NCBI GenBank assembly: GCA_902462475.1
Contig: CABQCB010000017.1
Span: 1 to 16,094, forward strand
Origin: an uncultured Oscillibacter sp.
GTDB taxonomy: Bacteria > Bacillota_A > Clostridia > Oscillospirales > Oscillospiraceae
Direction of reading: 5' to 3'
Length of the DNA: 16,094 nucleotides
Shown here: positions 487 through 16,055 of the stretch, piece by piece
Numbering within the stretch: the first letter of the stretch is position 1
How the letters are laid out: every line of letters begins with the position of its first letter
The notes under the pieces: model-generated
Databases searched by the model: none
Told to the model about the DNA's origin: nothing
Seen by the model: the letters and a program-made list of their open reading frames with translations, nothing else
Made by a program: the position numbers and the translations under genes

Positions 487-1503
487 ATGAAAGTGACCAT
501 CAGTGACGTGGCAAAGCTGGCGGGTGTCTCCACTGCCACCGTGTCTCACACCATCAATAATACCCGCTATGTCTCCGAGGAGACCAAGGAGAAGGTATAC
601 CAGGCCATTGCCGAGCTGGGCTATACGCCGGATGCCTCCGCCCGCAGTTTCCGCACGGGAAAGAAAAAGACCATCGGCTTCATCGTGCCGGATATTGCCA
701 ACAAGTTCTTCGCCACCATGATCGAGTCGGTGGAGACTTGCCTTGCCCAGCATGGGTATCATCTCATCATCGCCAACACCAAGGAGGATATGGAGCGGGA
801 GGAGACCAACATCCGCCTGCTCTCCGCAGGACTGGTGGACGGTCTGCTCATTGCCAGCACCATGGAGGATTTTTCCCGGCTGGACGCGCTGATCCCCGCC
901 GGCTTCCCGGTGGTGCTGGTGGACCGTACCTTTGATGTGAAGAAGTACTCCTCTGTGTGCGTGTCCAACTTCCGGCCCATCTACCGCAGCGTCTGCCGCC
1001 TGGCCGGCAAGGGGGCCCGCCGCATCGGCATCATCGGCGGCCTGCCGCGGCTGTCCACCACCCGGGAGCGCATCTCCGCCTATCAGCAGGCGGTGGCGGA
1101 CTGCGGATTGCCGGAGGATGAGTCCCTTATCCGCTACGGCAACTCCATGGAGGACAGTGCCCACACCTGTTTGGACGAGTTGCTGGAGCGCAAGTGCGAC
1201 GCCATCATCGTCTGCCAGGGCCTCATGGGCGCCGAGACCATCGTGCATTTGCACAAAAAGGGCATCCGGCTGGCCCAGGATATCGATCTGGTGAGCTTTG
1301 TGGACTATGATTCCAGCATCTATCAGCTCTATGACAACCAGATGGACTCCATCATCCAGCCGGTGGAGGAGCTGGGACAGGCTGCTGGCGAGCAGATCCT
1401 GCGGCGGATCGAGGACCCGGAGGCCCGGATCTTTGAAAAGGTCCTCACCTCTACCTACAAGCCCTATCAAACGCCCCAGTCCTGGGCGCATTCCGACCGA
1501 TAA
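487..1503 (+). CDS. LacI-family transcriptional regulator
   Basis: A 338-residue DNA-binding regulator of LacI/GalR type, expected to act as a dimer and respond to a sugar or metabolite. The N-terminal helix-turn-helix (about residues 3-22) reads TISDVAKLAGVSTATVS. The hinge segment (about 46-58) follows, then a periplasmic-binding-protein-like effector domain beginning KTIGFIVPDIANKFF and running to the end. I chose ATG 487 because GAGGAAA precedes it by about 8 bases and family members usually begin almost directly with the helix-turn-helix. The in-frame ATG at 472 lies inside the repeat and has no ribosome binding site. At hinge residue 55 the usual leucine lever (ARsLRT) is Phe (ARSFRT). 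The gene diverges from gap, and shared upstream elements suggest control of gap and of itself. It ends in a bidirectional terminator shared with the next gene. The effector is unknown. Confidence 0.93.
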   Translation: MKVTISDVAKLAGVSTATVSHTINNTRYVSEETKEKVYQAIAELGYTPDASARSFRTGKKKTIGFIVPDIANKFFATMIESVETCLAQHGYHLIIANTKEDMEREETNIRLLSAGLVDGLLIASTMEDFSRLDALIPAGFPVVLVDRTFDVKKYSSVCVSNFRPIYRSVCRLAGKGARRIGIIGGLPRLSTTRERISAYQQAVADCGLPEDESLIRYGNSMEDSAHTCLDELLERKCDAIIVCQGLMGAETIVHLHKKGIRLAQDIDLVSFVDYDSSIYQLYDNQMDSIIQPVEELGQAAGEQILRRIEDPEARIFEKVLTSTYKPYQTPQSWAHSDR

Positions 1504-1506
1504 CCG

Positions 1507-1543
1507 AAAAAAACGAGGCACGCCTGGCGTGCCTCGTTTTTTT
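1507..1543. terminator. Bidirectional intrinsic terminator
   Basis: A perfect stem CGAGGCACGC (1514-1523) with GCGTGCCTCG (1527-1536) closes a 3-base loop. It is flanked by seven A on the left and seven T on the right, so it works on both strands. It lies between the convergent stop codons at 1503 and 1547. Confidence 0.93.
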
Positions 1544-1546
1544 ACT

Positions 1547-3622
1547 TCAGCGGGTAAAGGAGAGGTGGAAGCGGCTGCCCGCGTCCCCGGCGAATACCAC
1601 CAGTCCGCCCTCCTCCAGAGGGGCCTTGGTGTCGTCCCACAAGACGGAGGAAGCGGTGAGGTAGCCCTCGGGATTGTAGACCCAGAAGCCGCCGTCACCC
1701 TCCACCTGGACGGACATGGCGGTCCAGGCGGCATCTTCCCCGATCCGGTACCAGCGGGCGTAGCCGTCCGGCTGGATGGTGCTGTACGACCAGCCGGAGC
1801 CGGTGAAGAGCTCCGGTGCGTCCTCCTGGGCAAGATAAAGAGTGGCGCCTGCGGTGAGATAGGTGTCACCGTTCTCCTCGCGAACGGTCATGTCGTAGCC
1901 GTCCCGGCCGCCGGTGCCCGGCAGCTGGAGCTCATAGCGGGCGGAGGCAGCGTCCACGATCCGGTCGGAGCCCACATAGCCCGGCGCGGACTGGGGCGCC
2001 TGGGACACCTGCGCGGCGCTCTCCGTCAAGGAGAGGTAGACCTGGGAGGTATAGGGCTCCGTCAAAGGCAGGAAGCTGGTGACGGACAGGGCATCCCAGG
2101 CGCTTTGTACCTCCGGCGAGACCTGGTTTTCCGGCATCCGCACGGCTGCGTAGTTGCTCATGGGCAGCGCGCCAAGTCCCGGCAGCGCGCCGAAGGCCTT
2201 CTGGTAGAGATAGGTCTCGCCGTTGGACTCCGTCACAAAGGACAAAAGCGACAGGTTGTTCGCATCCCGGAAGGTTCCGTCAGAGTAGTAGGAGAACACC
2301 TGCGCGGGAAGATCGGGGAAGTTGAGATAGGCCAGTGTCAGCTTCCCGTCGGCGGAGACATCCACCCGGTATTGGGCGGTGGTGGAGCCGTAATAGCCGG
2401 AAAAAGCGGTCAGCTCGGCGGGCATGGAGGCGGCCTGGGCGTCCGGCAGGGCGGGGATGGTCTCATCCACCGCGACGCCGTCCTGCCGGAGTGCTTCCGT
2501 GAGGAGGCGGGCGGCGGCCAGTTCGTTGTAGGCGGAGGAGCCGCCGGAGGAGAGCACGGCGGCGGCCATGCGGTGCTCGGGCAGCACGATGAGCCCCGCA
2601 TGGTAGCGCAGGGTGTCGCCGCCCTTGACCAGGGCCTGGATGCCGTTTTGGGAGAAGGGGAAGAAGGACACGCAGTCCCAGCCAAGACCGTAGCTGAGAA
2701 GATCCAGCGTGTCGTCCGGCCAGACGCCCCGGTCGTACTCCGGTGCCGCCATGGCTTTGCGGGAGGAGGCGGAGAGCAGGGTGCTGTCCGTCAGCGCGCC
2801 GCCGAAAGCTGCCAGGTCCGAGGCGGAGGCGTACAGCCCGCCGGCACCCACGGCGTTGAGGCAGTCCTGCGGGAGGGGGCGGGGATCGTTTGCAGAGTAG
2901 GTCTTGGCCAGAAGAGCGGTGTCAAAATCGTCGCCGGGGGCAAAGGTACTCTCCAGGCCGGCAGGAGCAAGGATGTTCTCGCGGACGTATTCCATGAAGT
3001 CCTGGCCGCTGACGGCTTCCACGATCAGCTGGGCCAGGGTGAAGCCGTCATTGCAGTAGACGCTGTATGTACCGGGGTCAGCCACCAGGCGCTGGGTGGA
3101 GAGGGTCTCCAGCAGATGGTCCACAGCGGAGTCATCTGCGTCATCAAACAAGATGGCACCGGCCAGACCGCTGCCCATGAGGCCGGAGGAGTGGTTGAGC
3201 AGCATCCGCACAGTAATGTCCCGGTAGCGGGGATCCGCCATGCGGAACTGGGGCAGATAGCGGGTGACGGGGGCGTCCAGAGACACGTGGCCCTGCTCGG
3301 CCAGCTGCATCACGGCCACGGTGGTGTAGATCTTGCTGACAGAGCCGATGCCATAGAGGATGTCGTCCGTAAGGGCCCGGTCCTCCGACTTGGAATAGAC
3401 GCCGCTGCTGCCGGTGAGGATGATCTCACCGTCCTTCCAAAGAGCGTATTGCACGCTGGTGGCACTGCCGTATTCCAGAGCGGCCAGGGCGGTGGAGACG
3501 GCGGTTTCCTCCAAAGAGGGAGCTGTGTCATCAGTTTGGGCGGCCAGTGCCGGAGCCGACAGACTCAGGGACAGCACCAGCGCCATGAGCAGCGCCAGAC
3601 AGCGTTTTTTCCGTACGATCAT
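1547..3622 (-). CDS. Secreted serine hydrolase, beta-lactamase/penicillin-binding (class C-like) fold
   Basis: A 691-residue exported protein of the serine beta-lactamase superfamily (Pfam Beta-lactamase type), members of which include esterases, D-aminopeptidases and DD-peptidases. A signal peptide is clear at residues 1-28 (MIVRKKR, a hydrophobic core, then APALAA). The catalytic motifs are in the expected order: SVSK at 94-97 (SxxK, nucleophile Ser94 and Lys97), LLNHSSGL at 141-148, YCN at 189-191 (YxN), and HAG at 341-343 (the HxG/KTG position). Residues about 404-434 (ELTAFSGYYG) begin a second beta-rich region like those appended to many of these hydrolases. The last 250 residues are not recognised. 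The start is supported by GGAAGG 7 bases before the ATG. It appears monocistronic and convergent with the regulator at 487-1503. The substrate is unknown: peptidoglycan stem peptide, an ester or a D-amino acid peptide are all possible. Confidence 0.9.
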   Translation of the reverse strand: MIVRKKRCLALLMALVLSLSLSAPALAAQTDDTAPSLEETAVSTALAALEYGSATSVQYALWKDGEIILTGSSGVYSKSEDRALTDDILYGIGSVSKIYTTVAVMQLAEQGHVSLDAPVTRYLPQFRMADPRYRDITVRMLLNHSSGLMGSGLAGAILFDDADDSAVDHLLETLSTQRLVADPGTYSVYCNDGFTLAQLIVEAVSGQDFMEYVRENILAPAGLESTFAPGDDFDTALLAKTYSANDPRPLPQDCLNAVGAGGLYASASDLAAFGGALTDSTLLSASSRKAMAAPEYDRGVWPDDTLDLLSYGLGWDCVSFFPFSQNGIQALVKGGDTLRYHAGLIVLPEHRMAAAVLSSGGSSAYNELAAARLLTEALRQDGVAVDETIPALPDAQAASMPAELTAFSGYYGSTTAQYRVDVSADGKLTLAYLNFPDLPAQVFSYYSDGTFRDANNLSLLSFVTESNGETYLYQKAFGALPGLGALPMSNYAAVRMPENQVSPEVQSAWDALSVTSFLPLTEPYTSQVYLSLTESAAQVSQAPQSAPGYVGSDRIVDAASARYELQLPGTGGRDGYDMTVREENGDTYLTAGATLYLAQEDAPELFTGSGWSYSTIQPDGYARWYRIGEDAAWTAMSVQVEGDGGFWVYNPEGYLTASSVLWDDTKAPLEEGGLVVFAGDAGSRFHLSFTR

Positions 3623-3672
3623 TGCAGGACCTTCCTTTCATCTTGCGTGTGGCGGATATCTCGTAAGGAGAG

Positions 3673-3701
3673 GATACACCATCCACCCGGGGGAAGGTCA
3701 A
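3673..3701 (-). promoter_or_regulatory. Possible promoter of the serine hydrolase gene
   Basis: On the minus strand TTGACC (3696-3701) is followed by TGTATC at 17 bases (3673-3678), or by TATCCT at 19 bases. The -35 is good and the -10 is weak, so an activator or an alternative arrangement is possible. The interval 3702-3745 shows nothing else. Confidence 0.4.
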
Positions 3702-3745
3702 GCATTTTTTGAAAAGAAGAGGCGCGCGGCAGACGCAAGCTTCTG

Positions 3746-3774
3746 TTGTCCCGCAGGGGAGAATGTGGTATACT
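3746..3774 (+). promoter_or_regulatory. tRNA-Leu promoter
   Basis: TTGTCC (3746-3751), a 17-base spacer and TATACT (3769-3774) lie about 45 bases before the mature tRNA start. This gives the tRNA gene its own transcription unit with a short 5' leader. Confidence 0.75.
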
Positions 3775-3818
3775 GCTGCTTGTGGCTGCGGGGAGTATAG
3801 CTGCCCCGCCGCTCCTAC

Positions 3819-3903
3819 GCGCCTGTGATGGAATTGGTAGACATGCGAGATTTAGGTTCTCGTGCAGCGATGCGTGTGGGTTCGAGTCCCTTCAGGCGCA
3901 CCA
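3819..3903 (+). tRNA. tRNA-Leu, anticodon UAG, CCA encoded
   Basis: An 85-base class II tRNA. The acceptor strands GCGCCTG (3819-3825) and CAGGCGC (3893-3899) pair fully, followed by A and an encoded CCA (3901-3903). The D arm is ATG/CAT around GAATTGGTAGA. The anticodon stem CGAGA/TCTCG encloses loop TTTAGGT, giving anticodon TAG at 3853-3855, which reads CUN leucine codons. The long variable arm GCA-gcga-TGC is typical of tRNA-Leu. The T loop is TTCGAGT. The T stem has three G-C pairs, then a T-T mismatch and a G-T wobble, slightly weak but not disabling. It has its own promoter and terminator. Confidence 0.97.
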
Positions 3904-3945
3904 AAAAAGAAAGACATCTGCTGGAAGCGGGTGTCTTTCTTTTTT
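3904..3945. terminator. Bidirectional terminator after tRNA-Leu
   Basis: A long stem: AAAAAGAAAGACATCTGC pairs (with a few G-T wobbles) with GCGGGTGTCTTTCTTTTTT around the loop tggaa. A-rich and T-rich flanks make it able to stop transcripts from both the tRNA gene (plus) and the TetR-type gene ending at 3997 (minus). Confidence 0.9.
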
Positions 3946-3996
3946 GGTTTCCGCTATCCGCCATTTCATGCAAAGAGGATCGTGCGCATGTTGTGC

Positions 3997-4581
3997 TCAT
4001 GCACGGGCGGCAGCGCCTCTTACCTGATCACTCAGCATCGTGTCGGCAAACTGGATCAGCTCTTCGGGGGTGCGGTCGATCTCGCCCAGCAGCCAGCTTT
4101 CCATGATGCCGGCCAGAGCCACCACATAAAAGTGGGTCAGTGTTTCCACGTCCATAAACGAATCCAGGTGGCTCCGCACCCCGATTTCATCGGCAAGCTG
4201 TTCGATGGTGAGGTGAATGATGGCATAGATATCCGATTCAAAAAAGCGCTTGATGTGGTCATGGCCCATGGAGCGCAGCGCGCACAGGCACACCGCGCGA
4301 TTCTCCTCCAGATAGCGGAACAGCTGGAGCAGTCCCTCTTTCCACAAAAGGGCCCCTTCCTGCTGGCGCAGCAGCGAGATGGCCTCGTTTTCAAACATCC
4401 AGCGCAGCAAATCGTAAATATCTTCAAAGTGGTAGTAAAAACTCTGGCGGCGCATACCGCAGGCGTTCGTCAGCTCAGAGATCGTGATCTTATCCAGCGG
4501 CTTTTGCGCCATGGCTTCTTTCAAAGCGGCAGCAAGCTCGCGCTTGGTCTGTTCGGAAACGGAGAGATTCTTTTGACTCAT
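3997..4581 (-). CDS. TetR/AcrR-family transcriptional regulator, divergent from the exporter operon
   Basis: A 194-residue regulator. The helix-turn-helix lies at about residues 32-53 (KITISEL, then CGMRRQSFYYHF), followed by DIYDLL, the typical TetR N-terminal signature. The helical C-terminal part, with FYVVALAGIMESWL and later EELIQFADTM, resembles the TetR_C_8-type ligand/dimer domain of Firmicutes regulators. An in-frame ATG 12 bases upstream (4593) would add MNAF. I favour 4581 because GAAGGTGA sits only 3 bases before 4593 but at workable distance from 4581; this is not certain. A TATACT-type -10 on the minus strand (4607-4612) has no good -35. It diverges from the operon starting at 4756 and is the natural candidate repressor of it. 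It resembles the regulator at 13015-13578 strongly over the DNA-binding region. Confidence 0.9.
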   Translation of the reverse strand: MSQKNLSVSEQTKRELAAALKEAMAQKPLDKITISELTNACGMRRQSFYYHFEDIYDLLRWMFENEAISLLRQQEGALLWKEGLLQLFRYLEENRAVCLCALRSMGHDHIKRFFESDIYAIIHLTIEQLADEIGVRSHLDSFMDVETLTHFYVVALAGIMESWLLGEIDRTPEELIQFADTMLSDQVRGAAARA

Positions 4582-4645
4582 GAATGCATTCACCTTCTCA
4601 TTTTATAGTATAGCATAGCGCCCCGGCTTCTTCCATCGGTCAGAT

Positions 4646-4684
4646 GCCCCCCTGGTGTCAAAATTCTGACATCGGGGGCTTTTT
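4646..4684 (+). terminator. Hairpin with T-tract in the divergent intergenic region; contains TGTCAAAATTCTGACA
   Basis: GCCCCCCTGGTGTC pairs imperfectly with GACATCGGGGGC around the loop aaaattct, followed by TTTTT (4680-4684), so it reads as an intrinsic terminator on the plus strand. No plus-strand gene lies immediately upstream. It could stop read-through from the tRNA side, act as a leader attenuator of the operon, or be a dispersed hairpin element. The core TGTCAAAATTCTGACA (4656-4671) is itself an inverted repeat and recurs almost unchanged at 13606-13624. Confidence 0.6.
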
Positions 4685-4689
4685 GTCCT

Positions 4690-4718
4690 TTGCACCCGCT
4701 GCGAAAGACGGATAGCAT
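4690..4718 (+). promoter_or_regulatory. Weak candidate promoter for the exporter operon
   Basis: TTGCAC (4690-4695), a 17-base spacer and TAGCAT (4713-4718) is the best match between the hairpin and the GAGGAGGA ribosome binding site at 4741. Both hexamers are poor. The octamer ATAGCATA at 4712-4719 also occurs at 4610-4617 beside the TetR start, so it might be part of an operator. Confidence 0.25.
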
Positions 4719-4755
4719 AAGAGAGAACGCTCGCAGGACAGAGGAGGAAGATCAG

Positions 4756-5073
4756 ATGAAAGAGTACAGGATCGTCTTGGAAAGTCAGCTCGGCCCTCGG
4801 AACGGCATGCTTCGCCTGAAAGAAGAGAGGGCGGGAACTGTGACCGGGTCGATCACCCTGCTTGGTGTTGAAAACGCCGCGTCCGGCCAGTGGATCGGCA
4901 AGCACTCGCTTCGCCTGTGGCACCATCTGCGTACCCATGTCAGCGATCTGGAATGTGTTTCTGTATTCGAGCTGGATGGCGACAGCATTTCCGGCACACT
5001 GCAAAATGACAAGACCACCATGCGCTGGCATGGAAAGAATGACCGCAGAGAAAGGGGAAAACGAAAAGAATGA
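4756..5073 (+). CDS. Small protein of unknown function, first gene of the exporter operon
   Basis: A 105-residue protein I do not recognise. It is soluble, without signal peptide or membrane segment. Residues about 3-92 look like a compact beta-rich domain: alternating hydrophobic strands EYRIVLES, GMLRLKE, GTVTGSITLLGVENA, a segment LRLWHHLRTHVSDLECVSVFEL, then DSISGTLQNDKTTMRW. A very basic tail (about 94-105, RRERGKRKE) ends it. The start at 4756 is set by GAGGAGGA about 7 bases upstream; the frame is open further upstream but without a ribosome binding site. Its stop overlaps the next start as ATGA, so its translation is coupled to the exporter. A cytosolic modulator or substrate-binding role for the transporter is possible but only inferred from context. 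Confidence 0.8.
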   Translation: MKEYRIVLESQLGPRNGMLRLKEERAGTVTGSITLLGVENAASGQWIGKHSLRLWHHLRTHVSDLECVSVFELDGDSISGTLQNDKTTMRWHGKNDRRERGKRKE

Positions 5074-7511
5074 CGGAGAACAAAAAAGCAGGCGGCGGCT
5101 TCATGACAAAGCTTGCCACATTCATCGTGGATAAGCGGAATCTGTTTTTCCTGCTTACCATCATCATGCTGATCTTTTCCGCTTTTTCCCGCAACTGGGT
5201 GGAGGTAGAGAGCGAACTTGCCGCCTATCTGCCCGCGGACTCGGAGACCCGGCAGGCCCTGGACATTATGGAAGAGCAGTTTGTCACCTACGGCAGCGCC
5301 CGGATCATGGTGGCCAACATCTCGCAGGACAAGGCCGAGGAGCTGAAAGATCAGATCGCTGGCATAAAAGGTGTGCAGAGCGTGGAATACGACAACACCG
5401 AGGACCACTACAACAACGCGTCCGCGCTGTATGCCGTCACGTTTGACTATGATGAGTCGGATGACAGCTGCCTGACCAGTCTGGAGACCATAAAATCCGC
5501 GCTCTCGTCCTACGATGTCTATGTCTCCACCGAGCTGGGCAACACCGAGCAGGAGGCCATCGACAGCGAGGTCCGCGTCATCATGGTCTATGTGGCTGTG
5601 ATCATCGTGCTGGTGCTGCTGTTCACATCCCAGACCTATGCGGAGGTCCCTGTGCTGATCTTGACCTTCGTGGTTGCCATGATCATGAATCTGGGCACCA
5701 ATTTCCTGCTGGGGAAGATCTCCTTTGTGTCCAATTCCGTGACCAGCATCCTTCAGCTGGCGCTGTCGCTGGACTATGCGGTCATCTTCTGCAACCGCTA
5801 TAAAGAAGAGCATCAGACCCTTCCTATCCGGGAGGCGGTCATCGTGGCGCTGAGCAAGTCCATCCCCGAGATCGGCGCCAGCAGCCTGACGACCATCGGC
5901 GGCCTGGTCGCCATGATGTTCATGCAGTTCCGCATCGGCTCGGATATGGCGATCTGCCTGATCAAGTCGATCCTGTTCGCGCTGCTTTCCGTATTCGTTG
6001 TGATGCCGGGCCTTTTGATGCTGTTCGGCCCGCTGATGGACCGCACGGAGCACCGCAATTTTGTGCCTAAGATCCCCTTCGTGGGCAAGTTTGCCTACAA
6101 AACGAGACATATCGTGCCGGTCCTGTTCACCATTGTGATCGTTATCGCATTCCCGCTCAGCCAGAAGTGCCCCTACGCCTATGGGGAGAGTTCACTGGAA
6201 ACGCCCGTGCTCAACGAGACACAGATCGCGGAGAACATGATCAGCGACAATTTCTCCTCCGCCAATATGCTGGCGCTCATGGTGCCCGCAGGCGACTATG
6301 AAAAGGAGGCGGCCATCCTTTCCGAGCTGGAGCAATACGATGAGGTGGACTACGCCATGGGCATCGCCAATGTGGAGGCCATGGACGGCTATACGCTGGC
6401 GGACCAGCTGACCCCCCGGGAGTTTGCAGAGCTGACGGAGCTGGACTATGAGGCAGCGAAGGTGGTTTACGCCGCTTATGCCGCCGAGCAGGAGGAATAC
6501 GGCCAGATCCTGGGCAATCTGGACGGCTATGAGGTACCTCTGATCGATATGTTCCTCTTTGTCTGCGATCAGGTGGACTCCGGCATTGTGACGCTGGACG
6601 AAGAGCAGACCGATATGCTCAACGAGGCCTACACCCAGATGACCGCTGCCAAAAAGCAGCTGCAGGGCACCGATTACAGCCGCATGCTGGTGTATCTGAC
6701 CCTGCCGGAGAGCGGCGATGAGACCTATCAGTTCCTGGATACCGTTCAGGAGACGGCACAGAAATACTATCCGGACGAAGCGGTCTATGTGGCCGGCAAC
6801 TCCACCACGGAATACGATTTCCAAAAAGCGTTTGCCCGGGACAATCTGGTGGTCAGTGTGGTGTCCATCCTCATCGTGCTGGTGGTGCTGCTGTTCACCT
6901 TCAAGTCGGCAGGCATGCCGGTACTGCTGATCCTTGTCATCCAGGGCAGTATCTGGATCAACTTCTCCCTGCCCTATCTCCTCGACGAGCCTCTGTTCTT
7001 TATGAGCTATCTGGTGGTGAGCTCCATCCAGATGGGCGCCAACATTGACTACGCCATCGTGGTAGCCAACCGCTATCAGGAGCTGAAAGAGCAGATGCAT
7101 CACCGGGATGCCATCATTGAGACCATGAACTTCGCCTTCCCCACCATCATTACATCCGGCACCATTTTGGCGGTGGCCGGCACCCTGATCGGCATGATGA
7201 CCTCCACGGCGTCTATTACCGGCATCGGCCAGAATCTGGGGCGCGGCACCATCATCTCCATCCTGCTGGTCATGTTCGTACTGCCGCAGATCCTGCTGGT
7301 GGGCGGAAAGATCGTGGATATGACCGCCTTTGAGATGCCGAATGTCACAAAGAAGCACAGCGGCCGCGGACGCGTCCGGGTGGACGGCATGGTGCGCGGC
7401 GAGATCCGCGGCGTAGTCAGCGGCATAATGCACGCTACCGTGGACGGCGAGGTAGACCTGAATCTGATCTCGGGCACCGCATCGGAGGAGGATGAAGATG
7501 AAACGGAATAA
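5070..7511 (+). CDS. MMPL/RND-superfamily exporter with a repetitive C-terminal tail
   Basis: An 813-residue polytopic transporter of the RND superfamily, MMPL type: proton-driven export of lipids or other amphiphiles from the membrane. It has the duplicated architecture: TM1 about 24-40, an outer loop 41-168, TM2-6 about 169-322, TM7 about 347-364, a second outer loop 365-590, and TM8-12 about 592-750. Each half carries an Asp-Tyr pair in the fourth helix of the half, SLDYAVIFCNRY (Asp235) and NIDYAIVVANRY (Asp660), matching the two Asp-Tyr pairs that form the proton relay in MmpL3. After the last helix a tail (about 764-803) reads as short Gly/Val-periodic units, RVRVDGMVRGEIRGVVSG and so on, followed by an acidic end (EEDEDETE). 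ATG 5070 overlaps the upstream stop; Met12 at 5103 is an alternative with a weaker site. The last 14 bases overlap the next gene. The substrate is unknown. Confidence 0.92.
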   Translation: MTENKKAGGGFMTKLATFIVDKRNLFFLLTIIMLIFSAFSRNWVEVESELAAYLPADSETRQALDIMEEQFVTYGSARIMVANISQDKAEELKDQIAGIKGVQSVEYDNTEDHYNNASALYAVTFDYDESDDSCLTSLETIKSALSSYDVYVSTELGNTEQEAIDSEVRVIMVYVAVIIVLVLLFTSQTYAEVPVLILTFVVAMIMNLGTNFLLGKISFVSNSVTSILQLALSLDYAVIFCNRYKEEHQTLPIREAVIVALSKSIPEIGASSLTTIGGLVAMMFMQFRIGSDMAICLIKSILFALLSVFVVMPGLLMLFGPLMDRTEHRNFVPKIPFVGKFAYKTRHIVPVLFTIVIVIAFPLSQKCPYAYGESSLETPVLNETQIAENMISDNFSSANMLALMVPAGDYEKEAAILSELEQYDEVDYAMGIANVEAMDGYTLADQLTPREFAELTELDYEAAKVVYAAYAAEQEEYGQILGNLDGYEVPLIDMFLFVCDQVDSGIVTLDEEQTDMLNEAYTQMTAAKKQLQGTDYSRMLVYLTLPESGDETYQFLDTVQETAQKYYPDEAVYVAGNSTTEYDFQKAFARDNLVVSVVSILIVLVVLLFTFKSAGMPVLLILVIQGSIWINFSLPYLLDEPLFFMSYLVVSSIQMGANIDYAIVVANRYQELKEQMHHRDAIIETMNFAFPTIITSGTILAVAGTLIGMMTSTASITGIGQNLGRGTIISILLVMFVLPQILLVGGKIVDMTAFEMPNVTKKHSGRGRVRVDGMVRGEIRGVVSGIMHATVDGEVDLNLISGTASEEDEDETE

Positions 7512-10500
7512 CTTTAAAAAGAAAAAAGAGCGGTGGATCGCCGCCGGCCTTGCGGTCGTTCTGCTGGCAGGTTTTCTGTTTCCTGTGCTGGCCTATGCCG
7601 CTGAGACCGTGGACGGCGCCATCCACATCCAGTCCCAGCAGGATCTGCAGATCCTGGCGGAAAACTGCCGGCTGGACACATGGTCCCAGGGCAAGACCGT
7701 GATCCTGGACCGTGACATCACCCTGGATGAAGATGCGCAGGATTTTTTGCCCATCCCCACCTTCGGCGGGACCTTTGAGGGCGGTGGCCACACCATCAAC
7801 GGATTTTCCCTCACCGGGGAGGATTCCAACGCCGGACTGTTTGACACCCTGCAGGAAAGTGCCGTGGTGAGCCGCCTGACCGTGGTGGGTCAGGTGACGC
7901 CAAGCGGTGCCGGTGATACCATCGGCGGCATCGCAGGCACCAACTATGGAAAACTGGTGGACTGCTCGTTTGAAGGGGCGGTGAAAGGAAAGGACACAGT
8001 GGGCGGTCTTGTGGGCGTCAATGAGACCACGGGACAGCTGATCAGCTGCCGCTGTCAGGGCATGGTCACCGGCGAGCACTATGTGGGCGGTATCGTGGGG
8101 CAAAACAGCGGCAGTGTGATCCAGTGCCGCAATGACGGCGACATCAACACCACGGCTGTGGAGGTGTCTGCGGATTTGACGGACCTTTCCCTGCTGGGGA
8201 CCACGGAGAGTGTGCCCGCCGGCACGGATATCGGCGGCATCGCGGGCTTTTCCAGCGGCGTGATCCAAAGCTGCACCAACACGGGCAGTGTGGGCTATGA
8301 GCACATGGGCTACAATGTGGGCGGCATCGCGGGGCGCCAATCCGGCTATCTGGATGGCTGCCGCAACACCGGCACGGTCCAGGGCCGCAAGGATGTGGGC
8401 GGCATCGCCGGACAGCTGGAACCCCAGGTGACCCTTCGGTACAACGAGGATCTGTTGGATCAGCTGTGGGGAAAGCTGGATGCGCTGCAAAGCTTGACAG
8501 ACCGGGCGGCGGACCATGCGCAAGATAGCTCTGGCCTTCTCTCCGATGACTTTGAGGGCCTGTCGGCCGACGTCGGCGACGCAAAGGACGCGATGAGCGG
8601 ACTGAGCGACGCCCTTACCGACTGGGGCAATGAAAATATCGGGCAGATCAACGATGCTTCTGCCCGGCTGTCCTGGGTGATCAGCCGGACGGAGCCCGTT
8701 TTGGACAGGGTTTCAAAGTCGATCTCGCATTTGCAGACGGTATCAGAGCTGCTGGAGAGTGCAGCGGACGAGGTGGATACGGCGGACGAACAGGGAGCAG
8801 CGGCCGCTGAGGAATTGGGGCAGGCATCCCGGGAGCTGCAGGAGGCGTTCAGGCACGCGGAGAACTGCGCCGGACATCTGGGCACGGCGCTGGAGCTTGC
8901 CGGGAAGATGCTGGGCGGAGATGAGAGCGAAGAGACGACCGGCGAACTCCTGGACGAGCTGAACGCCGCGCGGGAGGACGCGCAAAGTGCAAAGACGGCG
9001 CTGGGCAGCGCTCTGTCCCACGCCGATACTGCGCGCGGATATCTGGAGAAGATGGGAGATACCGGCGCCGGAGCGCTGGAGGACGTGACGGATGCGGCGG
9101 AGCCGCTGGACCGTGCGCTGGCTTCTCTGGAAAAAGCGGTGGACGAGATGGGTGAGATCGTGGAAACGCTGGCGGATGAGCCGGCCATCTCCTTTTCCCC
9201 GGTGGACAGCAGCGTGACCAGCCAGGGGGATGCGCTGGACGCGGCGCTGTCCCGGATGATCGACAATGCCAACCGCATGAGCAGCAATCTCACCGCTGCG
9301 TCCGATACCCTTCTGGATGATGTGCGCGCCATCAACGACCAGCTGGGCGCCATCACGGACCTGCTGCAAGAAGCGGTGGAGGATGCCAAAAACAAGGACG
9401 CTGAGGATCCCATTGAGGATGTCTCAGACGAGGCTTCCAGCGATCCGGCCGCAGGCAAGGTGCTGGGCGCGGTCAACAGCGGCCGGGTGCAGGGCGATTT
9501 GAATGTGGCCGGCATCGTGGGGTCCATGTCGGTGGAATACGATTTTGACCCGGAGGACGATCTGACGGAGGATGGGACCCGGTCACTGGATTTTCAGTAC
9601 AGAACGCTGGCGGTTGTGACGGACTGCATCAATGAAGGCAGCATCGAGGCAAAAAAAGATTATGCCGGCGGCATTGTGGGCCGGATGGATCTGGGGGCGG
9701 TAAAGGCCTGTGAAAGCTACGGGGAAGTGGAGAGCACCGGCGGAGATTATGTGGGCGGCATCGCCGGCATTTGCCGGGCCACCATCCGCGACTGCTATAT
9801 CAAATGCTTCCTGTCCGGCGGAGATTATGTGGGCGGCGTGGCCGGCGCCAGTGAGGACGACACCGTGGTCTCCGGCTGCTACACACTGGTGGAGATCACC
9901 GACGGCGGCCGCTGCACCGGTGCTGTCTGCGGCAACGAGGCCGGTGAATTCTCCAAAAACTACTATGTGTCCGATACCTTGGCAGGCCTGGGCCGCATCA
10001 GCTACGCCGGAAAAGCCGAGCCGATGACCTTTGAGGCGCTGAGCCAGGTGAGCGGCATGCCGGACAAAATGACCCGGTTCACCCTTCGCTTTCTGGTGGA
10101 GGATGAGGAGATCAAATCCTATGAGTTCTCTTACGGAGATTCTTTCGGCCCGGAGGCCTTTCCCGAGATCCCGGTGAAGGATGGGTACTATGCTTCCTGG
10201 GATACACAGGATCTGACGGATCTGCATTTTGATAAGACAGTGACGGCCGAATATGTCCGGTATGTGCTGACACTTTCCTCCGATGCCTCCCGTCCCAGCG
10301 GACGGCCGGTCTTTTTCATGGACGGCGATTTTGACGATGCGGCAGTGCTCACTGTTACCCGGACGGAAGAACCGGAGCAGGTGGACGGCAGAGCGGCGGT
10401 GGAGCAATGGCATCTTTCCTGCTCGGATCCTTCGCAGGAGAGCTATACCGTGCGCTATCTCTCGCCGGACGAGTCTCCAGACGGGTACGCTGTATTCGTC

Positions 10501-12102
10501 CGTGACCAGGATGGATGGCAAAAAGCGTCCTGCTCTGCATTCGGCAGCTATCTGGTCTTTACGGTGGCGGCCGCGGAGGCAGATGTGGCCGTTGTGCCTG
10601 TTGCAAGTGTGTGGCTCAAGATCGTGATCGTGTGCGCCGTGGCGGTGCTGTTGCTGGCGCTGCTGGTCGTGATCCGTCATCACCGCGGCGGAAAAAAGGA
10701 GAAGGCGCCTGCCCTGGGGCACAGTGCCGAGGAAAAAGCGTTGGAAGAAAACGCGGCGGCTCAGCCGGCCAAAAAGAAAAGGAGGCTGGCGGGACTTCTT
10801 ATCCTCGCGCTGGCGGCTGCGGCTGTATGCGCGCTGGTGGGAGGAAAGCTTGGAGCCGCAGCGGACGCCTGCCAACTGCTGCGGGAATTTGCCGAACAGC
10901 CGGAAAGCGCCATGACGCTGTCCATGAGCATCCAGCTGGATGATGCACTGACCAATACAGAGATGGACATCACCCGCACGCAGGTGGAGGGCCATACGGT
11001 CAGCTGTATCCGCAGCAGCGGCATTTCCCTGTATTACGCCGACGGTGCGGTCATGATGGAAAACGGCAGGGCGTTCAAGGTCAGTGAGCTGTATCCGGAC
11101 TATTCGCTGCTGCCGGCACAGACTGCGGAGCTTTTTGAGACCGTCTCCTTTTCCACGAACCGCAGCAACGGAGAGGTGACCTGCCGGCTGACGGCGGAAG
11201 GAGAGAATGCCGGGCGGCTGCTGAAGGTCCTGCTGCCCTATCAGGCAGACGATCTCCCGGATACCCAAAAGCTGACTGTGGAGCTTACATATTCGGGAAA
11301 TGAGATCCTTTCGCTTCGTTTTGCTTCCCAGGGGACCTTGACGGATGACGCAAAGACTGCGTATACCCTGACTGCCGAGCTCAAGCCCAAGAGTGGCGAC
11401 TCGGATTTTGCTGTCCCTGAGGCGGTGAGAGAGACGGTTTGCTCCGGAAATGTGGAAGGAGAGGTCTCCATTTCGGAAGATCTGTTCCGCCTGCTCAGCG
11501 CCTGGACAGTGATGGGGCAGGAGGATTCCTTCACGGCGGATGTGCAGCTGGATGTCGATTGCGGTCCCGTTTCGTTCAGTGAGGGCTTGAAGTACGGCCA
11601 GGCGCTTGCAGAGGGAGAGTCCATCAGCTTTGTCCGCAAGGATGATCTTGCTGTCTATTTTGCGGGAGGGACCTTCTGTGACCAAAACGGCGTCCTGCTG
11701 ACACAGCAGAACAGTGCGCTCGTGGATCGCGCGCACCTGCTGGAGGTGCTCAAGCAGATCTGCCTGAACAGCCAGTTTGACTGCACCGATACCGGAAACG
11801 GCAGCTGGCTGTATACATTGACGCTGGATGAAAGCGCCATGAAGACGGTGGCCTATGCTGCGGCACCCGAAATGGAATCGCTGCCTGTGACACTTGCGTC
11901 GGGCAGCGTGCAGATCACCGTGAGCGGCACGGCCATCCAGGAGATCGAATGCTCCTGCACGGGGGGCCTGGAAGCTTTGGAGGAAGCGGCACCTGTCACA
12001 GTGTCCGTGAACGTACTGTTTGCCCATAACAGTGAATTTGAAATTCCCGGTGCGGTGCAGGACCGGCTGATGCAAGAGGGAGTGATGGATCGTGGCGAAT
12101 AA
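7498..12102 (+). CDS. Giant membrane-anchored extracytoplasmic protein: GLUG solenoid, coiled coil, TM hairpin, tandem C-terminal domains
   Basis: A 1534-residue protein of unknown function. In order: basic N-terminus and hydrophobic signal/anchor (14-34, possible cut after AYA); about 95-312, six GLUG-type units with GGIAG/GGLVG motifs, expected to form a beta-solenoid; about 315-640, a hydrophilic Ala/Leu/Asp/Glu-rich coiled coil; about 654-850, a second set of about five GLUG units; about 861-920, a Flg_new/InlB-like unit with FSYGDSFG and DGYYASW; an Ig-like stretch to 1037; TM1 1039-1060; a basic loop 1061-1096; TM2 1097-1116; then two similar beta-rich domains (about 1124-1310 and 1329-1520). 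Basic residues at both inner ends put the solenoid and the C-terminal domains outside. ATG 7498 is preferred over 7492 because GGAGGAGG sits 6 bases before it. It overlaps the exporter by 14 bases and the kinase-like gene by 11. A scaffold or carrier for the exporter is inferred. Confidence 0.88.
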   Translation: MKRNNFKKKKERWIAAGLAVVLLAGFLFPVLAYAAETVDGAIHIQSQQDLQILAENCRLDTWSQGKTVILDRDITLDEDAQDFLPIPTFGGTFEGGGHTINGFSLTGEDSNAGLFDTLQESAVVSRLTVVGQVTPSGAGDTIGGIAGTNYGKLVDCSFEGAVKGKDTVGGLVGVNETTGQLISCRCQGMVTGEHYVGGIVGQNSGSVIQCRNDGDINTTAVEVSADLTDLSLLGTTESVPAGTDIGGIAGFSSGVIQSCTNTGSVGYEHMGYNVGGIAGRQSGYLDGCRNTGTVQGRKDVGGIAGQLEPQVTLRYNEDLLDQLWGKLDALQSLTDRAADHAQDSSGLLSDDFEGLSADVGDAKDAMSGLSDALTDWGNENIGQINDASARLSWVISRTEPVLDRVSKSISHLQTVSELLESAADEVDTADEQGAAAAEELGQASRELQEAFRHAENCAGHLGTALELAGKMLGGDESEETTGELLDELNAAREDAQSAKTALGSALSHADTARGYLEKMGDTGAGALEDVTDAAEPLDRALASLEKAVDEMGEIVETLADEPAISFSPVDSSVTSQGDALDAALSRMIDNANRMSSNLTAASDTLLDDVRAINDQLGAITDLLQEAVEDAKNKDAEDPIEDVSDEASSDPAAGKVLGAVNSGRVQGDLNVAGIVGSMSVEYDFDPEDDLTEDGTRSLDFQYRTLAVVTDCINEGSIEAKKDYAGGIVGRMDLGAVKACESYGEVESTGGDYVGGIAGICRATIRDCYIKCFLSGGDYVGGVAGASEDDTVVSGCYTLVEITDGGRCTGAVCGNEAGEFSKNYYVSDTLAGLGRISYAGKAEPMTFEALSQVSGMPDKMTRFTLRFLVEDEEIKSYEFSYGDSFGPEAFPEIPVKDGYYASWDTQDLTDLHFDKTVTAEYVRYVLTLSSDASRPSGRPVFFMDGDFDDAAVLTVTRTEEPEQVDGRAAVEQWHLSCSDPSQESYTVRYLSPDESPDGYAVFVRDQDGWQKASCSAFGSYLVFTVAAAEADVAVVPVASVWLKIVIVCAVAVLLLALLVVIRHHRGGKKEKAPALGHSAEEKALEENAAAQPAKKKRRLAGLLILALAAAAVCALVGGKLGAAADACQLLREFAEQPESAMTLSMSIQLDDALTNTEMDITRTQVEGHTVSCIRSSGISLYYADGAVMMENGRAFKVSELYPDYSLLPAQTAELFETVSFSTNRSNGEVTCRLTAEGENAGRLLKVLLPYQADDLPDTQKLTVELTYSGNEILSLRFASQGTLTDDAKTAYTLTAELKPKSGDSDFAVPEAVRETVCSGNVEGEVSISEDLFRLLSAWTVMGQEDSFTADVQLDVDCGPVSFSEGLKYGQALAEGESISFVRKDDLAVYFAGGTFCDQNGVLLTQQNSALVDRAHLLEVLKQICLNSQFDCTDTGNGSWLYTLTLDESAMKTVAYAAAPEMESLPVTLASGSVQITVSGTAIQEIECSCTGGLEALEEAAPVTVSVNVLFAHNSEFEIPGAVQDRLMQEGVMDRGE

Positions 12103-12694
12103 GATCATCTGCATTGGGCGCGAATTCGGCAGCGGCGGCCATGAGATCGCTGTGCGCACGGCGTCCAGGCTGGACATTCGGGTGTATGAAAAGGATCTTT
12201 TTCATCTGGCGTGCCGGTACGGGGAGCTTTCCGAGAAAATGATGGAATCTGCGGACGAAACAGCCACCAATCCCTTTTTGTACCGGACCGTACACGAGGG
12301 AAACTACCATGTCACCCGGGGACTGCCTACCTCGGAGGTGCTGTTTGAACTGCAAAGCCACGAGATCCGCCATATCGCCGGCAGGGAAAGCTGCATTTTC
12401 GTGGGCCGCTGTGCGGACTACGTGCTGCGGGAGGAGGATGTGAAGCTGCTGCGGGTTTTCGTCCGTGCCCCGGTGGAAAAGCGCATTGCGCGCAAGATGC
12501 AGCAGGAAAACCTCACCCGGGAAAAGGCGGTCCGCCTTGTGCGGAAGATGGATAAACAGCGGAAAAAGTACTATGAGTCCTATACCGGCCGCGTTTGGGG
12601 CGCACCGGATGGATGCGACCTGTGCATCGATACCGGTGTCACGGAGTTTGATGCCGCTGTGGACCAGATCTGTGCGGCCTATTCCGCTATGTAG
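12092..12694 (+). CDS. Cytidylate-kinase-like family protein (last gene of the operon)
   Basis: A 200-residue cytoplasmic protein of the Cytidylate_kin2 type (P-loop nucleoside monophosphate kinase relatives). The N-terminal motif CIGREFGSGGHEIA (residues 7-20) occupies the P-loop position but lacks the Walker Lys, as is usual in this family. Further family marks are IFVGRCADYVL in the middle, then RKMDKQRKKYYESYTG and CDLCIDTG in the C-terminal part. Family members are usually assigned as CMP/dCMP kinase-like from sequence, and their true substrate is often unproven. It starts at GTG 12092, which overlaps the preceding gene by 11 bases; GAGGG lies about 11 bases upstream, and no in-frame ATG fits better. 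Coupling to an exporter operon is unexpected. Phosphorylation of a nucleotide or another small substrate linked to the exported molecule is possible, but this is inference. Confidence 0.88.
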   Translation: MANKIICIGREFGSGGHEIAVRTASRLDIRVYEKDLFHLACRYGELSEKMMESADETATNPFLYRTVHEGNYHVTRGLPTSEVLFELQSHEIRHIAGRESCIFVGRCADYVLREEDVKLLRVFVRAPVEKRIARKMQQENLTREKAVRLVRKMDKQRKKYYESYTGRVWGAPDGCDLCIDTGVTEFDAAVDQICAAYSAM

Positions 12695-12706
12695 CCGGAT
12701 CTTTCC

Positions 12707-12732
12707 GGTATGCTGATGAAGATAAGCATACC
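12707..12732 (+). other. Hairpin just after the exporter operon
   Basis: A perfect 7-base stem GGTATGC/GCATACC with a 12-base loop, preceded at 12695-12708 by a smaller CCGGA/TCCGG stem that begins right after the stop codon. There is no T-tract, so it may protect the mRNA 3' end rather than terminate. Confidence 0.4.
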
Positions 12733-12769
12733 ACAGAGGCAGTCCGCCGTCGGACGCCCGGATTTTCCG

Positions 12770-12799
12770 CGTGCGGGTCCAAGCTTCTCCTGCACACCA
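12770..12799 (+). pseudogene. tRNA-like 3' fragment (T-arm and CCA remnant)
   Basis: The bases GTGCGGGTCCAAGC then about 12 bases and CACCAAA resemble the 3' end of the tRNA-Leu at 3876-3905 (GTGTGGGTTCGAGT, then CACCAAA) in order and nearly in spacing. The T loop is altered (TCCAAGC), the T stem pairs poorly and no 5' half is recognisable within 100 bases upstream. It could be a decayed tRNA, an attachment-site remnant or chance. Confidence 0.25.
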
Positions 12800-12802
12800 A
12801 AT

Positions 12803-12838
12803 CGGAGCAAGCGATTCATCGCTTGCTCCGGTTTTTTT
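12803..12838 (+). terminator. Intrinsic terminator of the exporter operon
   Basis: CGGAGCAAGCGAT (12803-12815) pairs with ATCGCTTGCTCCG (12818-12830), a perfect stem, followed by G and seven T (12832-12838). It lies about 110 bases after the kinase-like stop and is the first T-tract terminator downstream of the operon. Confidence 0.93.
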
Positions 12839-12840
12839 GC

Positions 12841-12935
12841 GGCGGTCACCGCGGGGTGTGTCTTCTGTACCTGCGTTTAATAATGAAGGCCGCGGAAAAC
12901 CGGTCCCTCCTGCCGCAGGCGTGCCTGGGTTCTTC
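12841..12935. other. Spacer without recognisable gene
   Basis: The part of the 320-base gap 12695-13014 between the terminator and the next promoter. No reading frame here has a ribosome binding site. A loose inverted repeat (AACC near 12898 against GGGTT near 12927, with CTGCCGCAG between) might be a decayed hairpin, but I see nothing firm. Confidence 0.4.
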
Positions 12936-12964
12936 TGGACAAGCGCGGCGGTTTTTGATACAAT
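12936..12964 (+). promoter_or_regulatory. Strong promoter of the second TetR-type gene
   Basis: TGGACA (12936-12941), a 17-base spacer and TACAAT (12959-12964), with TGa directly before the -10. Each hexamer matches consensus at five of six bases. The predicted start near 12971 gives a leader of about 45 bases. Confidence 0.8.
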
Positions 12965-13014
12965 CATTCCATATTGTTTATGTAGAAATTCGATGGACGC
13001 AGAGGGAACACGCC

Positions 13015-13578
13015 ATGCCCATGGATATGAAAGCCAAAATCGGAGAGACACTCAGTCAGCTGCTTTGCCGCAAACCGCTGGACAAGATCACCGTCAAGGA
13101 ACTGGTGGATACCTGCGGGATCAGCCGGCAGACCTTTTACTATCACTTCCAGGATATCATGGATGTGGTGGAGTGGAACCAGCGCCAGTCGCTCCGGCAG
13201 GCCATCGAGGCCAGCCTGGCCGCGCCTACGGGGCGGGATGCCATCCGGGGGATCGTGGCGGAGACGGTGAAGCGGCGGGAGCAGATCCGGCAGATGCTAT
13301 CCTCCCAGCGGGGCCGGGAGATCGAGCAGCTGCTGGTCAAGGCGGTGAGCACGTACCTGCGGGAGATGCTGCTGGTGAAAGCGCCGGGCTTTACGCTGCC
13401 GCCGGCCGACGTGGAGGCAGCGCTGTGCTTTTACGCCTGCGGCATGGTGGGCATGATGCTCGCGGGCCTGGAGAACAAGCATTTGGATGAGGAGCTGCTG
13501 GCGGACCAGATGCTGCGGCTTTTGTCCGGGGAGATTTCCCTGCGCCCGGCGGATGCCGGCGCGGACGGCACCAAGTGA
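13015..13578 (+). CDS. TetR/AcrR-family transcriptional regulator (paralogue of the one at 3997-4581)
   Basis: A 187-residue regulator. The DNA-binding helix-turn-helix is at about residues 25-45 (KITVKEL, then CGISRQTFYYHF), followed by DIMDVVEW. The C-terminal half is helical with a hydrophobic segment ALCFYACGMVGMMLAGLE (about 142-159), fitting a TetR-type ligand/dimer domain. Of three close in-frame ATGs (13015, 13021, 13027) I chose 13015 because AGAGGGA ends 7 bases before it. The open frame extends upstream to 12823 but across a promoter and terminator. It shares KPLDKIT, EL, CG, RQ, FYYHF and DI with the first regulator. It has its own strong promoter and is followed by a 21-base-pair hairpin. 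Targets may include itself, the ftsH unit downstream or the exporter operon upstream. Confidence 0.9.
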   Translation: MPMDMKAKIGETLSQLLCRKPLDKITVKELVDTCGISRQTFYYHFQDIMDVVEWNQRQSLRQAIEASLAAPTGRDAIRGIVAETVKRREQIRQMLSSQRGREIEQLLVKAVSTYLREMLLVKAPGFTLPPADVEAALCFYACGMVGMMLAGLENKHLDEELLADQMLRLLSGEISLRPADAGADGTK

Positions 13579-13591
13579 ATAAAAAATATAA

Positions 13592-13638
13592 ACAAAGGGC
13601 CGAAAGTGTCAAAATTCTTGACACTTTCGGCCCTTTGT
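13592..13638. terminator. Perfect 21-bp hairpin containing GTGTCAAAATTCTTGACAC
   Basis: Bases 13592-13612 pair perfectly with 13618-13638 around the loop aattc. It begins 13 bases after the TetR-type stop codon. The left flank is A-rich (AATAAAAAATATAAA), which would give a T-tract on the minus strand, but only CTATA follows on the plus strand. It may terminate the TetR transcript by sheer stem strength, block antisense transcription, or serve as an operator. The core is shared with 4656-4671. Confidence 0.6.
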
Positions 13639-13663
13639 CTATACAGGAGAGAAGAACTGACAG

Positions 13664-13692
13664 TGGCCAAATCGCAAGGGGACTGCTATAAA
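13664..13692 (+). promoter_or_regulatory. Probable promoter of the coiled-coil gene-ftsH unit
   Basis: TGGCCA (13664-13669), a 17-base spacer and TATAAA (13687-13692) with TGc before the -10 (extended -10). The predicted start near 13699 leaves a short leader of under 30 bases. Confidence 0.55.
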
Positions 13693-13726
13693 AGTAGCGT
13701 GGACCGCGGAAAGAGAGGTGGATGCC

Positions 13727-14164
13727 ATGGAAGGGACCAACGGACTGTTCTCCGCGAAGCTCAAAGAGCTGGAACGGGAATACGGACAGCTGCAAAGCGG
13801 CCTCCATCATCTGGAGGATGGCCGGGAGGGCGGACAGCGGGAGCTGGATCAGATCTGGCGGGAGTACGAGGAACAGCTGGCACATCTGGAGCGCACGGCC
13901 CGGAGCTGCCGCTCGCCTGCCATGGCCCAGATGGCGGCCTTGCAGCAGGAATACGAACAGAAAATGGAGCGGATCCTGCAAGAGCGCCTGGCGGGATCCG
14001 GTGGAGAGCGGCAGGCGGAGGCGGCGGCGCTCTATGCCGAGTATGCCATTGATTTTGCAGTCCAGGCCATGCGCTATGCGCTGATGGCGGCGCTGACAGC
14101 CGCCCGGCTGCAGGAAAAACTGCGCACGACTGAGGCAGAAGGAGAGAACGATCAGTATGAATGA
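13727..14164 (+). CDS. Small coiled-coil protein co-translated with ftsH
   Basis: A 145-residue protein I do not recognise. Residues about 7-57 and 66-88 are heptad-like, charged helices (SAKLKELEREYGQLQSGL; AALQQEYEQKMERILQERL), predicting a coiled coil. Residues about 95-133 form an Ala-rich amphipathic helix (ALYAEYAIDFAVQAMRYALM) that is not hydrophobic enough to be a sure membrane segment. There is no signal peptide. ATG 13727 follows AGAGAGG by 8 bases; a GTG at 13718 in the same frame lies within that site. The last 8 bases overlap the ftsH start. A cytosolic partner, adaptor or regulator of the FtsH protease is inferred from coupling only. Confidence 0.75.
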   Translation: MEGTNGLFSAKLKELEREYGQLQSGLHHLEDGREGGQRELDQIWREYEEQLAHLERTARSCRSPAMAQMAALQQEYEQKMERILQERLAGSGGERQAEAAALYAEYAIDFAVQAMRYALMAALTAARLQEKLRTTEAEGENDQYE

Positions 14165-15974
14165 AGTCAAAAGACCCAAAAAGCCACTGCTCTATTATTA
14201 CGGCATCATCCTTTTGGTGTTGATGCTGTTCAACCTGCTGGCACTGCCCCGCTTCGCGGAGGGGCAGTTGGTCGAGGTGGACTACGGCACCTTCATGTCC
14301 ATGACGGAAAACGGCCAGATCGGACGGGTGGAGCTGCAGGAGCAGGAAAACCGCATCCTCTTCACCAACCAGGAGGAGACGACCATCTACAAAACGGCCA
14401 TGGTGGACGATCCGGAGCTGACGCAGCGGCTCCACGACGCGGGCATCCCGTTTTACGGCCAGGAGATCCGGCAGGAGTCTCCCATCTTATCCGTCCTGCT
14501 GACGTGGATCTTGCCGCTGGTGATATTCATTGCCATTGGACAGTTCATGTCCAAAAAGCTCATGGACCGGGCCGGCGGCGCCAACGCCATGTCCTTCGGC
14601 CTGGGCAAGTCCAACGCCAAGATTTATGTGAAGTCCTCCGAGGGCATCAAGTTTTCCGATGTGGCCGGTGAGGACGAGGCCAAGGAGAGCCTCAAGGAGA
14701 TCGTGGACTACCTGCACGATCCCCAAAAGTACCGGGAGATTGGCGCGGCCATGCCCAAGGGCATTTTGCTGGTGGGCCCTCCGGGCACCGGCAAGACCAT
14801 GCTGGCCAAGGCAGTGGCCGGCGAGGCCAACGTTCCGTTCTTCTCCATGTCCGGCTCGGAGTTTGTGGAGATGTTCGTAGGCATGGGCGCATCCAAGGTG
14901 CGGGACCTTTTCAAACAGGCCAAGGAGAAAGCACCGTGCATCGTCTTTATCGATGAGATCGACGCCATCGGCAAAAAGCGGGACGGACAGATCGGCGGCA
15001 ACGACGAGCGGGAGCAGACCCTCAACCAGCTGCTCACGGAGATGGACGGCTTTGAGGGCAATACCGGCGTCATCATCCTGGCAGCCACCAACCGGCCCGA
15101 GTCCCTGGACCCGGCCCTCACCCGGCCCGGACGGTTTGACCGCCGGGTTCCGGTGGAATTGCCTGATCTCCATGGACGGGAGGAGATCCTGAAGGTCCAC
15201 GCCAAGAAGATCAAGACGGCAGAGGATGTGGACTTCCATAAAATTGCCCGCATGGCGTCCGGCGCCTCCGGCGCGGAGCTTGCCAACATCATCAACGAAG
15301 CGGCACTCCGGGCGGTGCGCAATGGCCGGAACTTTGCCACCCAATCCGACTTGGAGGAAAGCATCGAAGTAGTCATCGCCGGCTATCAGAAGAAGAACGC
15401 CATCCTGACGGATCAGGAGAAGTGGACGGTTTCCTACCATGAGATCGGCCATGCGCTGGTGGCTGCCAAGCAGACCCACTCCGCACCTGTCCAGAAGATC
15501 ACCATCATCCCCCGGACCTCCGGAGCCCTGGGCTACACTATGCAGGTGGAGGAGGGCAACCACTACCTCCTGACCCGGGAAGAGCTGGAAAACAAGATCG
15601 CCACCTACACCGGCGGCCGTGCGGCGGAGGAGGTCGTCTTTGGGACCATCTCTACCGGCGCGTCCAACGACATCGAGCAGGCTACCAAACTGGCCCGGTC
15701 CATGATCACCCGTTACGGCATGAGCAAGGACTTCGACATGGTGGCCATGGAAACGGTCAGCAACCAGTATCTGGGCGGCGACAGTTCCCTTACCTGCTCC
15801 ATGGAAACCCAGACGGAGATCGACCGTCAGGTAGTGGCGCTGGTGAAAAAGCAGCATGAAAAAGCTGCGGCTATTCTGGTGGAAAACCGGGAAAAGCTGG
15901 ATGAACTGGCCCGGTATCTCTATGAAAAAGAGACGATCACCGGCGAGGAATTTATGGAGATTTTGAATCGGTAA
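14157..15974 (+). CDS. ftsH: ATP-dependent zinc metalloprotease FtsH
   Basis: A membrane-bound AAA+ protease that unfolds and degrades membrane and short-lived cytosolic proteins as a hexamer. Of 605 residues: TM1 about 11-30, an outer domain 31-112, TM2 about 113-131, an AAA module with GPPGTGKT (207-214, Walker A), pore loop FVGMG (240-244), CIVFIDEID (261-269, Walker B with Glu267) and the second region of homology ending RPGRFDR with arginine fingers near 323 and 326. The protease domain has zinc motif HEIGH (428-432, catalytic Glu429) and the third-ligand Asp505 in [11 protein letters not shown]. All key residues are present. The protein is somewhat shorter than many Firmicutes FtsH proteins, mainly lacking a long C-terminal tail. 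It starts 8 bases inside the upstream gene's end, with AAGGAG about 12 bases before ATG, so translation is probably coupled. Genomes of this type can carry several FtsH copies, so it need not be the housekeeping one. Confidence 0.97.
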
Positions 15975-15980
15975 GCATTG

Positions 15981-16020: not shown

Positions 16021-16055
16021 TGATATGCGGGAAGGATGGAGAGCGGCAAGAAGAC

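Follow-up and report, generated by a model that had tools for sequence, protein, structure and literature searches.

How a lipophilic substrate of an RND/MMPL-type pump passes through a thick Gram-positive wall is, to our knowledge, an open question. It is raised by an operon of an uncultured Oscillibacter sp., located in a stretch of 16,094 nucleotides (assembly GCA_902462475.1, contig CABQCB010000017.1, positions 1 to 16,094; hereafter the window), in which an MMPL pump gene is followed directly by the gene for a giant partner protein of 1534 residues. These two genes form the conserved unit, accompanied in many loci by a divergent TetR gene. On balance, we lean towards a system that exports a lipid or another amphiphile under TetR control, with the partner supplying an arm and a carrier in trans. 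No description of such an MMPL-giant-protein system was found in searches of an open-access library. An earlier note on this DNA had proposed a self-contained four-gene export system in which the giant protein serves as outer scaffold/carrier. The export system with its scaffold/carrier is retained here; a fixed unit of four genes is not.

The pump and partner as the conserved unit

Gene neighbourhoods were compared across 95 sequences, comprising the window, 80 loci fetched through alignment to the giant protein (L001-L080, the best 80 of at least 489 confirmed matches) and 14 further loci. Several are near-identical or share a contig (L007 and L081; L041-L050). Fetched loci are labelled almost entirely as Bacillota, chiefly Oscillospiraceae and Lachnospiraceae (exceptions are L030, labelled Bacteroides, and the unlabelled L052), which agrees with the proposed self-contained export-type system of a Gram-positive lineage. 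The hidden Markov models used for gene detection were trained on these same 95 sequences, so an undetected gene is not proof of absence.

The MMPL and giant genes are adjacent on the same strand in 88 of the 95 sequences. Among the seven exceptions, L008, L045 and L056 start at a contig edge that lies within the giant gene or right at it, L091-L093 carry an MMPL of 37-38% identity without the partner, and L094 holds an MMPL fragment only. Because L001-L080 were fetched through the giant protein, the reverse test, with the MMPL as query, carries more weight. In 117 genomes drawn evenly from one order, it located 14 MMPL places in 13 genomes (E ≤ 1e-120). All 11 places of at least 47% identity adjoin a giant gene, two of them already in the giant-gene set (the first copy in G001 is L023, and the G081 contig is that of L007), and all three of 37-38% do not. 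In 16 genomes, MMPLs of the operon type show at least 48% identity over most of their length, and other MMPL matches reach at most 34%, apart from one 164-residue fragment at 45%. The MMPL-giant order recurs across Clostridia and exceeds chance.

The genome G001 has two MMPL-giant copies (L023 and L088), the second preceded by a co-directional TetR gene. In L005 (7649-13562), a metagenome assembly, both genes are split over several frames. L094 (5478-7583) places TetR, kinase-like and small genes beside its MMPL fragment, with the giant gene absent from the fetched piece, and is either a remnant or a contig artefact.

The transcription unit of the window and its control elements are as follows.

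3997..4593, - strand: divergent TetR-family regulator (TetR_N and TetR_C_8; Pfam)
4656..4671, no strand: putative TetR operator TGTCA-N6-TGACA (recurrence between TetR and operon)
4756..5073, + strand: small protein, 105 aa (open reading frame, homologue detection, alignment)
5070..7511, + strand: MMPL/RND transporter, 813 aa, with Asp-Tyr pairs near residues 235 and 660 (Pfam, alignment)
7498..12102, + strand: partner protein, 1534 aa, 3' of the MMPL gene (open reading frame, homologues, synteny)
12092..12694, + strand: Cytidylate_kin2-family protein, 200 aa, probably accessory, GTG start (Pfam)
12803..12838, + strand: intrinsic terminator (perfect 12-bp stem at 12803-12830, then seven T at 12832-12838)

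The overlaps, divergent TetR gene and terminator described in the earlier note are all present, as judged from open reading frame coordinates, Pfam, and the stem and T run. Successive genes overlap by 4, 14 and 11 bases, values that hold with a giant gene start at 7498; the listed frame begins at ATG 7492, and ATG 7498 is better spaced from the preceding GGAGGAGG. The terminator stem is given on the - strand only in the program listing, and its + strand reading comes from the sequence itself. A tRNA-Leu (3819-3903) lies between the unit and the preceding genes, and the terminator is followed by a separate second TetR gene and then FtsH.

The two small genes do not share the conservation of the large pair, and a fixed four-gene unit was rejected on the synteny of the 95 sequences. 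The refuting outcome named in the earlier note, a loss of linkage in related genomes, holds for the two small genes and fails for the two large ones. Of the 95 sequences, 28 have a recognised gene for the small protein, directly 5' of the MMPL gene each time, and a divergent TetR gene flanks its other side in 27 of these (L017 begins at the contig edge); TetR also occurs where no small protein was detected, for example in L031 and L037. The small protein matches no Pfam or NCBIfam model, and none of its 66 database homologues has a Pfam domain. The kinase-like protein matches Cytidylate_kin2 (PF13189) with E 3.1e-47 and 161.4 bits against a cut-off of 28, and its solved relatives are 3hdt and 3fdi. 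Classical CMP kinases carry a lysine in their P-loop; the kinase-like protein has GREFGSGGHEIA at this position, and the lysine is missing there in all 17 aligned copies. Its gene was found in 17 of 95 sequences, at two places (in 11 it follows the giant gene, and in 6 it stands next to TetR on the opposite strand), which makes the supply enzyme envisaged earlier unlikely as a core component. With 1-8 PF13189 matches in each of 16 genomes, this role was rejected as a general feature. Both small proteins are probably accessory.

A second TetR-type gene (12985-13578, + strand) is located just 3' of the operon terminator, and upstream of tRNA-Leu, 1547-3622 on the - strand encodes a 691-aa protein with a Beta-lactamase domain (PF00144), a class that also includes esterases and peptidases.

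Predicted architecture of the pump and its partner

The pump matches Pfam MMPL (PF03176) over two stretches (E 2.4e-45, 155.4 bits against a cut-off of 20.5). It features LDY near residue 235 and IDY near residue 660, which we take, from the MmpL3 motif, to be the Asp-Tyr pairs of both proton-relay helices; both pairs are present in all six proteins inspected, one of which is an unpaired relative. Among solved structures, MmpL4 and MmpL5 are the closest relatives of the pump. Pump residue 553 aligns to residue 730 of a 974-aa MmpL4 chain and to residue 539 of a 783-aa MmpL4 chain, which suggests that the pump lacks some 190 residues that are inserted in full-length MmpL4. Sequence alignment gave no in-pump coiled coil of the MmpL5/MmpL10 type, and the model instead places long helices in the partner.

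The pump ends in a cytoplasmic tail.

7362..7475, + strand: glycine-repeat, solenoid-like MMPL tail with a bactofilin-like pattern (sequence pattern)

This tail is found in 80 of 80 partner-paired MMPLs longer than 500 aa (79 by a pattern composed after the tails had been viewed, and L020 by eye) versus none of three unpaired MMPLs. The tails share glycine-spaced hydrophobic repeats with bactofilins, and 7 of 48 weakly match the Pfam bactofilin model at E ≤ 1. However, the best E is 0.0062, the single bit score seen is 14.5 against a cut-off of 27.9, and the tail is short, at about 38 residues, and forms part of a pump. The tail of the window gives no match to this model, and its assignment as a bactofilin was rejected.

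The partner can be divided into the following segments.

7531..7611, + strand: signal peptide or N-terminal hydrophobic segment (hydropathy)
7618..8442, + strand: first half of the β-helix, GLUG (Pfam, structure model, VIA-align)
8449..9393, + strand: helical bundle inserted within the β-helix (structure model, length classes)
9457..10002, + strand: second half of the β-helix (structure model, VIA-align)
10078..10602, + strand: strand-rich juxtamembrane domain (structure model)
10609..10692, + strand: membrane helix 1 (hydropathy, structure model)
10780..10863, + strand: membrane helix 2, after a basic loop (hydropathy)
10846..12099, + strand: two tandem domains with a predicted LppX/LprF/LprG/LolA fold (AF2 model with pLDDT 87, Foldseek, VIA-align)

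The partner is thus predicted to combine a β-helix interrupted by a helical bundle with a strand-rich domain and a membrane helix, to which the lineage of the window is predicted to add a second membrane helix and two lipid-carrier-fold domains. The GLUG β-helix is indicated both by a Glug Pfam match above the cut-off (E 1.3e-7) and by the predicted fold. VIA-align related the N-terminal part to the β-helix of IgA1 protease, and Foldseek returned nothing at E ≤ 0.001 for the 1031-residue N-terminal model.

The inserted bundle falls into two length classes. Lengths were measured between fixed alignment columns, an initial regular expression having overlooked most proteins, in 84 proteins (those below 950 residues and L005 were excluded). 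The insert spans 308-372 residues in 51, a class inflated by the near-identical L041-L050, and 408-463 residues in 31; two are shorter (229 and 252), and none falls between 373 and 407. The classes switch 13 times on the MMPL tree (61 labelled rows) and are therefore no clade markers. They are compatible with a helix pair of roughly 80 residues being gained and lost.

The C-terminal domains bear on the carrier role proposed in the earlier note, which is backed by their predicted tandem LppX/LprG/LolA fold. VIA-align, among the 50 entries listed, placed LprF, LppX and LprG above RseB. Foldseek TM-scores are low. Each domain resembles LppX, LprG and LprF in predicted fold; unlike these proteins, the domains are tandem and fused to a pump partner, where a preceding membrane helix of the long chain takes the place of the lipoprotein anchor of these carriers. 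In the 16 genomes, the carrier domain is present in four, once each and always within the long protein, and no free-standing copy was found at E ≤ 0.001 in genomes lacking the fusion.

The TetR regulator and its putative operator

In the 81 sequences formed by the window and L001-L080, a divergent TetR gene precedes the operon in 32. The palindrome TGTCA-N6-TGACA was first spotted by eye in the gap between TetR and operon and counted afterwards. It occurs at 20 sites, one each in 20 of the 81 sequences (1.295 Mb), all within this gap and all in sequences having the divergent TetR, compared with a chance expectation of 1.2 if even base use is assumed. A stricter form, TGTCANAAWTNTGACA, was found in 8 of the 16 whole genomes; seven have a single site at the operon promoter, and G005 has a single site elsewhere. 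The reversed stricter pattern matches in one of the 16. These seven are genomes whose loci had already shown the site, and what the whole-genome count adds is the lack of any further exact match in them. A local, dedicated TetR regulator with a putative operator is likely.

Proposed export of an amphiphile and rival explanations

Mycobacterial members of this pump family export waxy lipids, and they offer the closest parallels to the proposed design. MmpL5 and MmpL10 carry their own coiled coil; in MmpL10 it oligomerises the pump, and efflux by MmpL5 depends on it, a 13-nm tube being the modelled form there (PMC12501195, PMC12183618). The partner MmpS5 has a single helix and an Ig-like domain (PMC12501195). 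The operon resembles them in joining an MMPL/RND pump to an extracytoplasmic helical extension. In contrast, its helical part is predicted to reside in a separate partner, inside a β-helix, the pump appears to have no insert, and there is no mycomembrane. LppX helps PDIM, the MmpL7 product, to reach the surface; the same review states that no contact between lipoproteins of this type and an MmpL had been shown (PMC6463170). The best reading may be that the partner brings in trans what MmpL5 and MmpL10 carry in cis, together with an LppX-like shuttle.

In such a system, the proton motive force would drive the pump to take its substrate out of the membrane and deliver it into the partner. The helical bundle may hold the pump or extend it into the wall, like the in-cis coiled coil of MmpL5/MmpL10, and the tandem carrier domains could grip a lipid by its acyl chains and hand it onward, giving a route from pump to partner to wall or surface under TetR control. 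The solenoid-like tail may aid pump assembly or anchor the pump, and TetR would react at its single operator when the amphiphile accumulates. A more specific form of this proposal is doubtful, namely a wall-reaching Gram-positive lipid-export machine with an RND pump assembled or anchored via its bactofilin-like tail and one partner in trans providing a conduit arm of two discrete lengths, a membrane adaptor and a tandem LppX-type shuttle.

Several observations weigh against lipid export through such a partner. The carrier domains match no Pfam family at E ≤ 10 and no PDB sequence at E ≤ 1, and their best Foldseek TM-score is 0.48 of target (LprG). They were not detected in 68 of 91 giant-gene sequences, of which at least three (L009, L010 and L025) stop short of the carrier region, and the carrier is therefore inessential to the core. 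The helical part is also similar to designed four-helix bundles, so that a tube is only one conceivable role for it, and a length switch of about 80 residues is hard to reconcile with a single fixed wall thickness. In a rough clustering of neighbouring open reading frames, any additional family occurred near at most 13 of the 81 sequences, and thus no substrate pathway was seen travelling with the operon. The palindrome is absent from 12 of the 32 sequences with a divergent TetR.

The main rival, possible though unlikely, is detoxification, with a pump that expels toxic amphiphiles such as bile acids, free fatty acids or plant antimicrobials and a partner that merely stabilises it or binds the ejected molecule. 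The precedent is FarE/FarR of the Gram-positive S. aureus, where a TetR regulator and an RND pump for fatty acids are encoded divergently. It is alike in gene arrangement, which alone was compared, and FarR is required for FarE expression (PMC10019231). One dedicated putative site beside a divergent TetR in 7 of 16 genomes fits this explanation, as do the many relatives labelled as gut bacteria. However, the available part of that source names no giant partner for FarE (PMC10019231), and simple ejection requires no tandem lipid carrier. The partner could instead be a surface adhesin or wall-anchored scaffold, with the MMPL serving its placement rather than lipid export; this is improbable, since the partner is paired with an RND-type pump retaining both Asp-Tyr pairs and, like its membrane-linked carrier-fold domains, this points to transport. 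Very improbable is an RseB-like role in which the C-terminal domains sense lipids and the partner signals via its two membrane helices: the loop between these helices is short and basic, Pfam matched the operon proteins to neither an anti-sigma factor nor a signalling domain of the cytoplasm, and LprF, LppX and LprG score above RseB among the listed matches.

If the export system favoured here is correct, the operon would represent, in gut bacteria, an MmpL design that can be taken apart, since arm, adaptor and carrier all belong to a single partner and can be removed one at a time. The family is widespread, with 2611 database proteins matching the giant protein at E ≤ 0.001, although many of the 120 listed cover only part of it. 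A TetR regulator with a genome-unique putative site may provide a direct route to the inducing molecule.
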